Assembly (NCBI RefSeq): GCF_003860125.1
Contig: NZ_RQYL01000025.1
Location: 1 to 64,000 of the forward strand
Direction: 5' to 3'
DNA from: Fretibacterium sp. OH1220_COT-178
GTDB taxonomy: Bacteria > Synergistota > Synergistia > Synergistales > Aminobacteriaceae
Length of the DNA: 64,000 bases
The translations under genes were made by a program, and so were the position numbers. Positions 35,821 to 42,631 of this stretch are shown in pieces. The notes under the pieces were generated by a model. It did not search any database. It saw nothing but the letters and a program-made list of their open reading frames with translations, and had not been told where the DNA came from. Position 1 is the stretch's first letter. Every line of letters begins with the position of its first letter.

Positions 35821-36180
35821 TTCCCGAAAAATTACGGTGTCGTTCGCATCATGATATCATTAACTCTCCGAGTGCGCGCTCCGTCCGATCGGTCGAGGAG
35901 CGGGGAACGTCGGTCCGGCGTGGGGATTCCCCCGGTTATCCACAGCATTCGCGGGTTTCGCCTGTGGATAAGTGTATAATCAGGGCGGACCGGCATGGAA
36001 AAAGGACCGAGATGTGGACAGATTTGTGTACCCCCTGAGGAAACCGGTGAAAACCGGGCTCAGATCGACAAGCGACGAGGGCCCCGGTCGCGGCTTTCGT
36101 CCGAACGACCCGTCGCTCGGAGGAGATGAGGTCCTCCCGTGATTTTCAGTGCGACAACTCCATCACAGGGGTGAAACGGA
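35821..36180. other. oriC: Left part of a bipartite replication origin (upstream of dnaA)
   Basis: The intergenic region between the leftward desulfurase gene and dnaA carries a perfect DnaA box ttatccaca at 35936-35944. Its inverted partner tgtggataa lies at 35963-35971, and a weaker tgtggacag at 36013-36021. An AT-rich patch with the 10-bp palindrome atgatatcat (35851-35860) lies to the left. No protein-coding gene is apparent. Transcription diverges from here, as expected at an origin. Confidence 0.8.
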
Positions 36181-37521
36181 TTGCAAAAGGACACGAAGAA
36201 CCTGAAGGAACTGTGGGACGAGATCGTCGGGGGCGCCGACCTGCCCGAGGGGGCGGTGTCGCTCTGGCTGACGACCTGCATGCCCGTGGCGCTGGAGGAG
36301 GACGAGCTGGTCGTCGACACGACCAACCCCTTCACTCAGGAGTACATCACGAAGAACTTTCTGGAGGCGTTGAACCGATCCGCCCGGAACGGGGACAACG
36401 TGAAGCGCATCCGCCTGAAGGCCAGCGTCCATCCCGAGGGGGAGGACAAGCGGAAGGAGTGGGTGGCCCGCGCCGAGGAGGCGTCGCGGAGCCGGAACGA
36501 ACCGGGATGCAATCTGAACCCGCACTACACCTTCTCCACCTTTGTCGTGGGAAAATCCAACCGGCTCGCCCACGCCGCCAGCCTGGCCGTCGCGGAGATG
36601 CCGGGGAAGGCGTACAACCCGCTCTTCATCTGGGGCGGCGTCGGGCTGGGAAAGACGCACCTGATGCACGCCATCTGCCATTACGCGCTCTCGCGTTCGC
36701 AGGGTCTGAGGGCGCTCTACCTCAGCGCGGAGAAGTTTCTGAACGAGTTCGTCCAGGCCATCGGGTCGTCGAAGATGTCCCAGTTCAAGGACCGCTACCG
36801 CAACGTGGACATCCTGCTGATCGACGACATTCAGTTCCTCGGAAACAAGGGGCAGAGCCAGGAGGAGTTCTTCCACACCTTCAACACCCTCCACGAGGGC
36901 AACAAGCAGGTGGTGATCTGCTCGGACCGCCAGCCGTCGGAGCTCCAGAACATCGAGGACCGGCTGATCAGCCGCTTCGCCTGGGGGCTCGTGACGGACA
37001 TCCAGCCGCCGGATCTGGAGACGCGTATCGCCATCCTTCAGAAGAAGGCCACGTTCCGGGAGTACGACATGCCCGACGAGGTCATCCATTTTCTGGCGCA
37101 GCACATCCCCAGCAACATCCGCGAGCTGGAGGGGGCCCTCAACCGCGTCATTGCCTGTGCGGAGCTGTCCGGAGAGCCCATCACCATCGACCAGACGTCC
37201 GTCTGGCTCAAGGATATCCTCCGCATGGACCTGAAGGGCCCGGTGACAATCGAGAGCATCCAGGCCGTGGTGGCGGAGAGCTTCGGGATGAGCCCGGACG
37301 ATCTCGCGAGCTCCAAGCGCACGGCCGACATCGCCCTGGCGCGCCAGATCGCCATGTACCTCTGCAGGGAGCTGACGGAGCTCAGCCTCCAGAAGATCGG
37401 GCACGCCTTCAGAAAAAAGGACCATACGACCGTCATCCACGCCCAAAGGAAGATCGGGCAGCTCATCAAGGGCGACCCCGACGTCAAGCGCACGGTGGAC
37501 AACATACGGAACAAGCTGTGA
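36181..37521 (+). CDS. dnaA: Chromosomal replication initiator DnaA
   Basis: A 446-aa DnaA with a short domain II. The AAA+ core starts near NPHYTFSTFVVGKSNRLAHA. Walker A is GGVGLGKTHLMHA (about 155-167), Walker B LLIDDIQFLGNK, and sensor/box VII NIRELEGALNRV. The C-terminal DNA-binding domain ends with the DnaA-box reader KDHTTVIHAQRKI. The start is a TTG at 36181 with a modest AGGGG about eight bases upstream. Origin sites flank the gene on both sides, which suggests autoregulation by DnaA. Confidence 0.98.
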   Translation: MQKDTKNLKELWDEIVGGADLPEGAVSLWLTTCMPVALEEDELVVDTTNPFTQEYITKNFLEALNRSARNGDNVKRIRLKASVHPEGEDKRKEWVARAEEASRSRNEPGCNLNPHYTFSTFVVGKSNRLAHAASLAVAEMPGKAYNPLFIWGGVGLGKTHLMHAICHYALSRSQGLRALYLSAEKFLNEFVQAIGSSKMSQFKDRYRNVDILLIDDIQFLGNKGQSQEEFFHTFNTLHEGNKQVVICSDRQPSELQNIEDRLISRFAWGLVTDIQPPDLETRIAILQKKATFREYDMPDEVIHFLAQHIPSNIRELEGALNRVIACAELSGEPITIDQTSVWLKDILRMDLKGPVTIESIQAVVAESFGMSPDDLASSKRTADIALARQIAMYLCRELTELSLQKIGHAFRKKDHTTVIHAQRKIGQLIKGDPDVKRTVDNIRNKL

Positions 37522-37543: not shown

Positions 37544-37718
37544 TTGTCCACAGGCCGACTTCCCCGAACCGACGGCCGCACACAAAATCCACAGGCCGTT
37601 CACGGCGCATCCACAGGAATTTCACAGCGGACAAAACGCGTGAGCGGCGGACGGCGGACGGGATATCCACAGACTTGTTCAGCACTACTGCAACTACTGT
37701 CACCTTAAAAAAAGAAAA
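37544..37718 (+). other. oriC: Right part of origin: DnaA boxes, DnaA-trio-like triplets and A-rich unwinding tract
   Basis: Between dnaA and dnaN, four same-orientation sites share the TCCACA core: ttgtccaca (37544-37552), aaatccaca (37585-37593), gcatccaca (37607-37615) and atatccaca (37663-37671). They are followed by in-register triplets CTA CTG CAA CTA CTG (37685-37699) and then ttaaaaaaagaaaa (37705-37718). This order (boxes, trios, AT tract) matches the basal unwinding system described for Bacillus subtilis, so I place the unwinding site here. The whole 303-bp gap has no gene. Confidence 0.7.
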
Positions 37719-37824
37719 CGGAACGGGTTGTTCGCAACATCCTCCTCCACAGTCCCAAGGAGCCGCAGGACCGCGACCAAGGCGAGGACCGTGAGAGACG
37801 AACGCGAGACCACAGGAGGGAACG

Positions 37825-39030
37825 GTGCAGACGATGAAAATAGAGCTCGACCGGTTGGAGTTTCTCAAGGCCTGGCAGATGGCCGAGCGCTCCAGCAGCA
37901 CAAAAAGCACGATCAGCGCGGTGAGCGGCATTCTGATCACGGCCTCGGAGGCGGAAACCCACCTTCAGGCAACGGACTTCAAGACGGCGATACGCTGCCT
38001 GGCCCAGGGCGTCCGTACCGTCTCCCCAGGCTCGGCGGTCCTGCCGGTCCGCCTCTTCGGAGAGTTTCTCAAGAAGATGCCGCTCGACACGATCTCCCTG
38101 GAGATCGCCAACGAGAGGGGGACGCTCTCGGCGGGCCGGAACCGGACCCGCTTCGCCACGTGGCCCGTGTCGGAATTCCCGGGAATCCCCCGCAGCGACG
38201 GTGCGGATCCCCTGTGCGACCTCCTCGCGGCCGATCTCGTGCGGGCCATCACCGAGGGAGCCGTGGCCAGCTCCACCCCTGCCGACTTCCCGAAGTACCT
38301 GGGCACCTGTCTGCTGAAGATCCAGCAGAACCGGCTCAAGGTCGTCTCGACGGACGGCAAGCGCCTCTCGCTCTCGCAGTGTCCCTGCGAGGCTGAGGCC
38401 GACGCGGAGCTTCTGCTCCCGGTCCCGGCCCTCAGAGAGTTGGGGCGCCTCCTGGCGGGCGGCGACCCGGAGGCCCGCACGCAGGTCCTGTACGACGGCT
38501 CCACCGCCTGGTTCAGGATGGGGGACCTGGAGTTCTCCGTCCGCCGCGTGGAGTCGTCCTTCCCGAACTACGAGAAGATCCTGACGCCCGGGGCCTCGAC
38601 GACGCTCAGGATTCGTCGGGACGAGCTGCTCCCGGCCCTCGAGCGCATCGACATCATGGTGCGCAACACCCTGACCCGCCTCGTGGTCCTCAACCTCTCG
38701 CCCGGCGGGGAGTTCCGCCTGAGCGGCCGGGCCCCCGAACTGGGCACCACGGTGGAGGTCCTGGACGGAAACGTCGACGGCGATCCGCTGCGGGTCGGCT
38801 TCAACGTCGGCTTTCTCCAGGACGGCCTGAAGGCCCTCGGCAGCGGCGAGATCCGCCTGGAATTCAACGGCGAGGAGGGACAGACGAGGCTGCTTCGGGA
38901 GGGCTCGGAGGATTTCCTCTACATGCTCATGCCCGCTCGGCTGAGTCCTCAGGATCTGACCGACGACGAGGAATCCCCTGAGGGACTCGAGGACGTCGAG
39001 GGACCCGTCCCGGAGGAGGAGCCGTTCTGA
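37825..39030 (+). CDS. dnaN: DNA polymerase III sliding clamp (beta subunit)
   Basis: The 401-aa beta clamp, with three repeated domains. It starts MQTMKIELDRLEFLKAWQMAERS and has FPNYEKILTPG at the second-domain boundary and DFLYMLMPAR near the usual C-terminus. The family normally ends there; this one carries about 30 further, strongly acidic residues. I use GTG at 37825 (AGGAGG five bases ahead); the ATG at 37834 would give the more standard N-terminus. It is expressed in the dnaA-dnaN-recF direction. Confidence 0.96.
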   Translation: MQTMKIELDRLEFLKAWQMAERSSSTKSTISAVSGILITASEAETHLQATDFKTAIRCLAQGVRTVSPGSAVLPVRLFGEFLKKMPLDTISLEIANERGTLSAGRNRTRFATWPVSEFPGIPRSDGADPLCDLLAADLVRAITEGAVASSTPADFPKYLGTCLLKIQQNRLKVVSTDGKRLSLSQCPCEAEADAELLLPVPALRELGRLLAGGDPEARTQVLYDGSTAWFRMGDLEFSVRRVESSFPNYEKILTPGASTTLRIRRDELLPALERIDIMVRNTLTRLVVLNLSPGGEFRLSGRAPELGTTVEVLDGNVDGDPLRVGFNVGFLQDGLKALGSGEIRLEFNGEEGQTRLLREGSEDFLYMLMPARLSPQDLTDDEESPEGLEDVEGPVPEEEPF

Positions 39031-40173: not shown

Positions 40174-42066
40174 TTGTTTCGAGATCGATACGACATCGTT
40201 GTGATCGGCGGGGGACACGCGGGCTGCGAGGCGGCGCTGGCCGGCGCCCGCATGGGCTGCCGCACCCTGCTGCTGACCCTAGGGGTGGACGCCACGGCGC
40301 TGATGCCTTGCAACCCCTCCATCGGCGGCCCCGCCAAGGGGCATCTGGTCCGCGAGATCAGCGCGCTTGGGGGGGAACAGGCCCGTGCGGCCGACGCCTC
40401 GACCCTGATGCTCCGGTGGCTGAACACCTCGAAGGGGGTGGCGGTTCGGGCGCTGCGCGCCCAGTGCGATCCCGTACGCTACGCGGGACACTACAGAACC
40501 CTGCTCTACACGCAGACGAACCTCGACCTGCATCAGGACGAGGTGGTCGAGCTGCTGACCGAGGGAGGGCGGGTCCGCGGCGTGCTGAGCCGTCACGGTT
40601 CGCGCTACGGGGCCCGGTCGGTCGTCCTCTGCTCGGGGACGTACCTCGGGGGCCGCGTCCACGTGGGCGAGGCCGCGTTCTCCTCGGGCCCGATGGGGCA
40701 GACCTCCGCGGACCGCCTGCTCGACTCCCTGGCGGCGCTGGGCCTGAGACAGGGTCGCATGAGGACGGACACGTCGCCCCGCCTGAACCTCGATACGATC
40801 GACCTCGCCTCCGCAGTGCCGCAGCGGTCGGAGGAGGAGCCGCTCTGCTTCGACATCTGGGGGGAGAAACGGGTTCATCGCTCGGATTACGCCTGTTGGT
40901 TCTCCCGGACGACGGAGCGCACCCACGCGATCCTCGAGCGGAACATCCACCGTTCCCCATTGACGACCGGAGCCCTGGACACCCGGGGCCCCCGGTACTG
41001 TCCTTCCATCGAGGACAAGTTTCTGCGTTTTCCGGACCGCAGGACGCACCCGATCGTCTTCGAGCCCGTCTCCTCGGACACGAAGGAGGTCTACGTCCAG
41101 AACTTCTCCACCAGCCTGCCCTACGACGTCCAGGTCGAGATGGTGCGGTCCCTGCCGGGCTGTGCGGACGCCAAGATCATCCGGCCGGGCTATGGAATAG
41201 AATATGTGTATCTCAGCCCTGATCAACTTGCACCTTCTCTCGAGAGCCGCGAGCTGAGGGGGCTTTTTTGCGCGGGACAGGTCAACGGGACCTCGGGCTA
41301 CGAGGAGGCGGCGGCTCAGGGCCTTTTGGCGGGGGTCAACGCGGCCCTCTCCGCGAAGGGGGACCCGCCGGTCGTTCTGAGCCGGTCGGACGGGTACCTC
41401 GGCGTCCTGGTGGACGACCTGACGACCAAGAGCACGGAGGAGCCCTACCGGATGCTGACGAGCCGCTGCGAGCATCGCCTGTTGATGCGCTACGACAACG
41501 CCGATCGGCGTCTCTCCCCTCTGGCCCGGCGTCTCGGCCTGATCGGGGACGGGCGCTGGGCGGAGCTGGAGCGCCGCTGGGAACGGGAGGACCGTGAGGT
41601 CGCACGGCTGGAGTCGGCGCGGATCGTTCCGTCCGAGGGGACGGAGTGCCTTTGCGCCGCATTTGGATCGGAGGCCCCGAGGGAGCCGGCGACGGCCGCG
41701 GCCTTTCTGCGGCGCCGGGGGGTGACGTACCGCCTGATCGAGGCGCTCGTCCCGCCGGAGGTCCCTCTCGAGCCGGAGGAGGCCTTTTACGTCGAAACGA
41801 GCCTTCGGTACGCCGGGTACCTGGAGAAGGAGGCGCGTCTGGCCGAGCGCATGACGGGCATGGATGGAGTCCTCATTCCGGACGGGTTCGACTACGAATC
41901 GCTCGAGGGGCTGTCGTCCGAGGGGCGCCAGAAGCTCGTGCGCTTCCGCCCCCGCTCGCTGGGCGGGGCGCTGCGCATCTCCGGGGTGACGCCCGCCGAT
42001 GTCCAGCTGCTGGCCGTGGTGCTCAAGCGGATGGGCCGCACCCCGGACAGGGGGTGCGCGAGATGA
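40174..42066 (+). CDS. mnmG: tRNA uridine 5-carboxymethylaminomethyl modification enzyme MnmG
   Basis: A 630-aa FAD enzyme that, with MnmE, modifies the wobble uridine of several tRNAs. The FAD motif IVVIGGGHAGCEAALAGARMGC is at the N-terminus. MPCNPSIGGPAKGHLVREI, GTYLGGRVHVGE, GLRQGRMRTDTSPRL and LFCAGQVNGTSGYEEAAAQGL are all family signatures. The start is a TTG at 40174 with ggaggg upstream. The stop overlaps the DciA-like gene by four bases (ATGA). Confidence 0.97.
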   Translation: MFRDRYDIVVIGGGHAGCEAALAGARMGCRTLLLTLGVDATALMPCNPSIGGPAKGHLVREISALGGEQARAADASTLMLRWLNTSKGVAVRALRAQCDPVRYAGHYRTLLYTQTNLDLHQDEVVELLTEGGRVRGVLSRHGSRYGARSVVLCSGTYLGGRVHVGEAAFSSGPMGQTSADRLLDSLAALGLRQGRMRTDTSPRLNLDTIDLASAVPQRSEEEPLCFDIWGEKRVHRSDYACWFSRTTERTHAILERNIHRSPLTTGALDTRGPRYCPSIEDKFLRFPDRRTHPIVFEPVSSDTKEVYVQNFSTSLPYDVQVEMVRSLPGCADAKIIRPGYGIEYVYLSPDQLAPSLESRELRGLFCAGQVNGTSGYEEAAAQGLLAGVNAALSAKGDPPVVLSRSDGYLGVLVDDLTTKSTEEPYRMLTSRCEHRLLMRYDNADRRLSPLARRLGLIGDGRWAELERRWEREDREVARLESARIVPSEGTECLCAAFGSEAPREPATAAAFLRRRGVTYRLIEALVPPEVPLEPEEAFYVETSLRYAGYLEKEARLAERMTGMDGVLIPDGFDYESLEGLSSEGRQKLVRFRPRSLGGALRISGVTPADVQLLAVVLKRMGRTPDRGCAR

Positions 42067-42578
42067 GGGAAGACGCCGCCCGAAACGCGATCCGTGCGGG
42101 CTGCAGGCGACTGGAGCGGGTCGCGTCCCTGAAGGAGCTGCTGGAGGGGATGGTCCCGGGGCAGAGCGATCGCATCAGGCGGCTCGAGGACCTGATGAGG
42201 AACTGGGCTGCGGTGGTGGGGCCCGGGCGGGCCCGGCTCTCGGCCCCCTACGAACTGGAGGACGGGGAGCTCCGGGTCGCCGCCGCGACCCCTCATGCTG
42301 CACAGCAGATCGGCAACATGAAAGGGAACATCCTCCGTGCCCTCAGGGAGCGCTGGGGCTTGGAGGCGGACCGGGTCCGGGTGACTCAAGGTCCGCCTCC
42401 CCTCCGGCGCCGCGTCGCTCAGGACGGACCGCGCCGCAGGCACCCGCGGGTCGTGCTCCCGCCCGAGGAGGTCGAGGCGCTCCGGTCGGCCTGTCCCGAG
42501 GCCCTGTCCGACGAGGCCGCCCTGGGCCTGGCGAGGCTCCGGGCCTTCTTCGCCCGCCGCTTCCCCCATTCCCGGTAA
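42063..42578 (+). CDS. DciA/DUF721 family protein
   Basis: A 171-aa protein whose first half matches the DUF721/DciA family: WAAVVGPGRARLSAPYELEDGELRVAAATPHAAQQIGNMK. DciA loads the replicative helicase in bacteria lacking DnaC/DnaI. The C-terminal 70 residues are Arg/Pro-rich and poorly conserved. It overlaps mnmG by four bases and ends at a strong terminator, closing the origin operon. Its presence fits a role in helicase loading near oriC. Confidence 0.8.
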   Translation: MREDAARNAIRAGCRRLERVASLKELLEGMVPGQSDRIRRLEDLMRNWAAVVGPGRARLSAPYELEDGELRVAAATPHAAQQIGNMKGNILRALRERWGLEADRVRVTQGPPPLRRRVAQDGPRRRHPRVVLPPEEVEALRSACPEALSDEAALGLARLRAFFARRFPHSR

Positions 42579-42586
42579 AGGGCGGG

Positions 42587-42631
42587 AACGACCCGGGGGA
42601 CTTGGGGTCCCCCGGGTCGTTGTGTTTTTTG
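42587..42631. terminator. Strong intrinsic terminator after the origin operon
   Basis: A perfect 15-bp stem aacgacccgggggac (42587-42601) / gtcccccgggtcgtt (42607-42621) with a 5-nt loop is followed by tgtgtttttt. It terminates the plus-strand dnaA-DciA operon and separates it from the convergent DUF1537 gene. Confidence 0.9.

Follow-up and report, generated by a model that had tools for sequence, protein, structure and literature searches.

A putative Bacillus-type replication origin with a gapped DnaA-trio array between dnaA and dnaN in Fretibacterium and other Synergistota

Which sequence elements would open the chromosome of Fretibacterium sp. OH1220_COT-178 for replication, and are they those of Bacillus subtilis? 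The stretch analysed here (the window, 64,000 nucleotides) has the usual gene order dnaA, dnaN, recF, mnmG. The initiator gene dnaA lies at 36181..37521 on the forward strand (TIGR00362, E 3e-160) and the sliding clamp gene dnaN at 37825..39030 on the same strand (TIGR00663, E 1.5e-51). From the dnaA stop at 37521 to the dnaN start at 37825 they leave a gap of 303 bp, for which an original prediction proposed a bipartite oriC with a DnaA-trio-like unwinding element.

In B. subtilis, the basal unwinding system of oriC (BUS; incC) is composed of DnaA-boxes #6/#7, a GC-rich spacer and DnaA-trios (PMC6669920, PMC8287927, PMC10721633). A DnaA oligomer starts from the proximal box, and adjacent subunits of this oligomer take hold of the two leading bases of every trio (PMC10721633, PMC8287927). 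Pelliciari et al. (2021; PMC8287927) predicted box-trio systems in 85% of 2070 bacterial origins (1755), missing 15%; their search asked for a box with at most two mismatches, a spacer of 0-16 bp, most commonly 13 bp, and at least three consecutive 3'-NAN-5' trios. Origins without matches, they suggested, might have trios lacking the middle adenine (PMC8287927). Such a system in the window is expected rather than surprising, as it is already predicted in so many origins. The main text of PMC8287927 does not name Synergistota, and our search of the literature on Synergistetes or Synergistota with DnaA or the DnaA box found nothing on origins of the phylum.

Boxes, spacer and triplets in the window

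The gap contains five TCCACA motifs, all on the forward strand, where 0.15 would be expected; none of 20,000 Markov-1 shuffles reached this number. Four same-orientation boxes with this core had been predicted and all are present: TTGTCCACA at 37544..37552 (one mismatch, distal), AAATCCACA at 37585..37593 and GCATCCACA at 37607..37615 (two mismatches each), and ATATCCACA at 37663..37671 (one mismatch). A fifth box-like site, TCCTCCACA (37743..37751, forward strand, two mismatches), lies beyond the trios. ATATCCACA, an imperfect consensus that stays within the published two-mismatch limit, is the putative proximal BUS box positioning the trios, and its orthologue is kept in the dnaA-dnaN gaps of relatives. 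Upstream of dnaA, an inverted pair spans 35936..35971, made of TTATCCACA (35936-35944) and TGTGGATAA (35963-35971) with starts 27 bp apart; as predicted, both boxes are perfect. The box cluster beside dnaA and dnaN that is looked for in an oriC is thus formed by five sites in the gap and a perfect pair before dnaA.

The proximal box is followed by a spacer of 13 bp (37672..37684), which falls in the published range and on its mode. Inside it, at 37675-37683 on the forward strand, TTGTTCAGC is a possible weak second box, with four mismatches and an offset of +3 bp. Next comes the triplet array CTA CTG CAA CTA CTG (37685..37699, forward strand). Its bottom strand, 3'-GAT GAC GTT GAT GAC-5', would supply trios 1, 2, a defective 3, 4 and 5; the sixth triplet is TCA. 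The five in-register triplets that were predicted hold as to position and register, though the third is no trio: CAA, or 3'-GTT-5', has no central adenine, the defining base of a DnaA-trio. For this reason the window fails the strict published rule, the array being broken into 2+2 with no three consecutive 3'-NAN-5' trios. Under a relaxed criterion, at least four of five triplets fitting YTR in register after the spacer, the window scores 4/5 at the modal 13-bp spacing; the chance of this is 2e-5 for a fixed 13-bp spacer and 4e-4 for any spacer from 0 to 16 bp. Beyond the triplets, positions 37700..37719 are 75% AT, compared with 42% for the gap, and form a candidate helicase-loading or unwinding region. 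The predicted A-rich tract is found within it, at about 37706-37719.

The window's DnaA was aligned with 8btg (B. subtilis numbering). It has N187, I193, K222, E228 and the arginine finger R264 in place, and at trio-binding ISM positions the substitutions are conservative (I190 to V, R202 to K). Judged by the roles of these residues in B. subtilis (PMC10721633), the protein would retain what trio binding requires.

Conservation of the register across Synergistota

DnaA was detected in 139 of 188 Synergistota genomes, and we compared 90 dnaA regions, the window included. Throughout the phylum, a succession of a DnaA box, a 12-13 bp spacer, in-register TTA/CTA triplets and an AT-rich tract recurs in these 90 gaps. 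Boxes and register being present in the relatives, the objection that relatives might lack them fails, and the predicted B. subtilis-like order of boxes, trios and AT-rich DNA gains support, qualified by the interruption at trio 3. At least three of the five triplets fit YTR in 68 gaps, and 60 of these have a spacer of 12 or 13 bp (13 bp in 42, 12 bp in 18). Over the 90 gaps, the mean length of the longest NTN run linked to a box is 4.7, versus 0.86 in dinucleotide shuffles.

We then anchored gaps blindly, by the box and trio 1 only, which gave 83 gaps from 48 genera. The central T (the trio adenine) occurs at trios 1-6 with frequencies of 1.00, 0.89, 0.71, 0.54, 0.88 and 0.82; in the two shifted-frame controls it ranges over trios 2-6 from 0.06 to 0.24 and from 0.20 to 0.51. 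By genus, trios 5-6 are better kept than trios 3-4 in 21 cases and worse in 4 (Wilcoxon p = 0.003, a guide only, since genera are not independent). The commonest patterns are 111111 (25 gaps), 111011 (23) and 110011 (7). Of the 83 gaps, 20 do not have the three trios in a row that the strict rule asks for, some of them being among the few mis-anchored gaps (e.g. L023 and L075) that add noise to the set. The window's own array is eroded relative to relatives in genera g11, g9 and g7.

Could the YTR periodicity be incidental, the boxes marking an origin or a titration or autoregulation site, and unwinding taking place in 37700-37719 in the manner of E. coli? The interrupted array of the window and the presence of the AT-rich tract would suit such an arrangement, but we regard it as improbable: register and 12-13 bp spacer are conserved over 48 genera, trios 5-6 keep their central T at 0.82-0.88 when the anchoring takes no account of them, and the signature hardly occurs outside the dnaA-dnaN gap (see below).

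The second box varies more. Many other families of the phylum have a clear second box directly next to the first, with about 4 bp left before the trios. In the window's genus group the abutting slot reads GA[GC]TTGTTC or GAGTTATCC, which permits only a weak second box at a 3-bp offset. Whichever the arrangement, the conserved quantity is the total of 12-13 bp.

The box pair before dnaA recurs with the same 27-bp spacing in ten other genera of the family (g4, g7, g9, g11, g12, g14, g15, g16, g17 and g19) and with 26 bp in g13. This recurrence supports the bipartite layout of the original prediction. The pair is a candidate for the upstream half of a bipartite origin, for dnaA autoregulation, or for both. 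Its perfection and conservation could also mean that the cluster at 35936-35971 is the true origin, and that the downstream gap only titrates DnaA or regulates dnaN. We consider this very unlikely, as the conserved trio signature is found downstream of dnaA and not upstream, and both halves can form one bipartite origin.

The signature with and without DnaA

We searched the 188 whole genomes for TTATCCAC-N13-15-YTAYTRYTR, with the reversed pattern as a control. The signature gave 32 matches, the control 5. Comparison with DnaA positions places 29 of the 32 just downstream of dnaA; the other three are an oriC-like cluster of 12 boxes in G057, a site in G005, where DnaA had no match, and one elsewhere (G153).

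The G057 cluster (L256, 1900-2220 of G057:C145) belongs to a DnaA-bearing genome of genus g10, from the window's family, and combines 12 perfect boxes with a trio array of five CTA triplets. It adjoins a gene resembling a trkH-like ORF of the window, on a contig without dnaA; the oriC of G057 seems detached from dnaA, in what is a fragmented assembly. About ten of the family's genera share another conserved box cluster away from dnaA (L240, at G000:C23:25503-25581; L237-L239, L241, L242 and L244-L253). It ends in TTATCCAC-TTATCCACA, with one more perfect box about 70 bp upstream; in G030 and G031 its distance to dnaA is about 72-91 kb. In the other genomes, the cluster was not accompanied by the genes that neighbour it in the window's genome. 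It is possibly a site of DnaA titration or reactivation.

Genus g10 itself, represented by Synergistaceae MAGs from rumen and gut (goat, sheep, red deer, reindeer), some of them labelled uncultured Fretibacterium, offers a natural control. The C-terminal DnaA domain PF08299 is absent from 40 of its 43 genomes, and from 27 of 30 among the high-quality ones (examples are G046, G080, G083, G085 and G086; loci L042-L071 and L175-L201). We considered a diverged DnaA and rejected it: outside the three DnaA-bearing genomes, matches to PF00308 are weak, none exceeding 38 bits, lack the C-terminal DnaA domain and resemble other AAA+ proteins. The gene dnaN is found in 40 of the 43, with changing neighbours and no boxes. 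In the 400 bp before dnaN, boxes with at most one mismatch number 0.11 per DnaA-less locus (n=37) versus 3.6 in DnaA-bearing gaps, and 2 of 37 such loci have at least four of five YTR triplets, versus 54 of 89 DnaA-bearing gaps. The trio signature was found in none of the 40 DnaA-less g10 genomes, versus two of the three that keep DnaA. Where DnaA is gone, then, boxes and trios are gone as well, and their loss beside dnaN ties these sequences to the protein.

Genus g10 appears to have lost dnaA, in one or two events compatible with the DnaN tree, although a systematic binning gap may mimic such a loss, all its genomes being MAGs. This rumen genus is probably a more surprising by-product of the analysis than the origin. 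Free-living bacteria without dnaA are documented among cyanobacteria (PMC7198777); a literature search on DnaA absence in Synergistota returned no report. In one DnaA-less g10 genome, the sparsely sampled GC skew of an 829-kb contig (G086:C1, L156-L173) switches sign at several points, similar to the multiple switches reported for DnaA-independent cyanobacteria.

Loss of DnaA in the same family, together with the erosion of the window's array relative to g11, g9 and g7, invites the thought that its triplets are a chance pattern in a decaying former origin, the species having moved to DnaA-independent replication. An intact dnaA with conserved key residues, and the retention of boxes, spacer and 4/5 trios at a chance of about 2e-5, leave this hardly credible.

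The original prediction also made the origin depend on GC skew, and here the outcome is divided. In the complete relative G030 the skew switches at dnaA: it is positive over some 900 kb to the right of the gene and negative on the other arm. In the window, whose genome is in 105 contigs so that skew is limited to the stretch itself, cumulative skew falls to a broad plateau at about 26-40 kb, gap included, and then rises. It has no sharp minimum at the gap, and is consistent with an origin there without pinpointing it. Sparse skew samples from G038, the closest single-contig relative, gave no clear switch.

Altogether, the recurring order of box, spacer, triplets and AT-rich tract, its nearly exclusive adjacency to dnaA and its absence from the DnaA-less genus lead us to read the gap as, very probably, the chromosomal oriC, with a gapped variant of the Bacillus-type basal unwinding system (box, spacer and DnaA-trios).

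A model for a gapped trio array

Our data bear on the sequence and its conservation, on spacing and register, on how far the signature is unique in the genome, on its loss together with DnaA and on the skew switch of one relative; DnaA binding, oligomer growth, base capture and unwinding are carried over from work on B. subtilis. By this analogy, DnaA would bind the proximal box at 37663-37671, with help from the gap's three boxes upstream of it and probably also from the inverted pair before dnaA. From there, a DnaA-ATP oligomer would extend along the bottom strand of 37685-37702, each subunit adding 3 nt, and capture the 3'-GA dinucleotides of the trios; strand opening would thereby reach the AT-rich tract, where the helicase would load.

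The window shares with the B. subtilis BUS its location between dnaA and dnaN, a same-strand box with further boxes upstream of it, the 13-bp spacer, bottom-strand triplets of the 3'-GAT-5' type with 3'-GAT-5' first, an AT-rich tract after them and a DnaA that retains most ssDNA-binding residues. It differs in its third trio, trios 3-4 being relaxed across the phylum, and in the weakness of its second box. The outer trio pairs would hold most of the sequence information, while one or two in the middle could do without their central adenine. We give about even chances to a general form of this idea, in which Synergistota use a gapped array of about six slots: DnaA would read trios 1-2 and 5-6, slots 3-4 would have no need of base-specific binding, and the oligomer would bridge one or two defective trios. 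That the subunits over trios 3-4 require no specific base is a hypothesis drawn from conservation alone, and it makes a testable prediction as to which DnaA subunits must capture a base.

Box-trio origins were known already; the present analysis contributes an alignment across the phylum, the gapped pattern of trios and the joint disappearance of boxes and trios with DnaA. The alignment fits the deviant trios suspected by the BUS authors behind the 15% of missed origins. Standard searches miss the mid-array gap of Synergistota, for the published rule wants three consecutive A-centred trios, and middle trios that are dispensable phylum-wide would give a concrete reason for part of that 15%.

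The window's boxes flank dnaA and its trios lie between dnaA and dnaN, in contrast with the oriC of Helicobacter pylori. The two are alike in having two box regions and a DnaA-trio motif, the H. pylori origin being described as bipartite with box clusters on either side of dnaA (PMC8235120). As a separate observation, the reading frame after mnmG (window 42000-42600, within the forward-strand ORF 41646-42578) looks by eye like the helicase operator DciA/DUF721.
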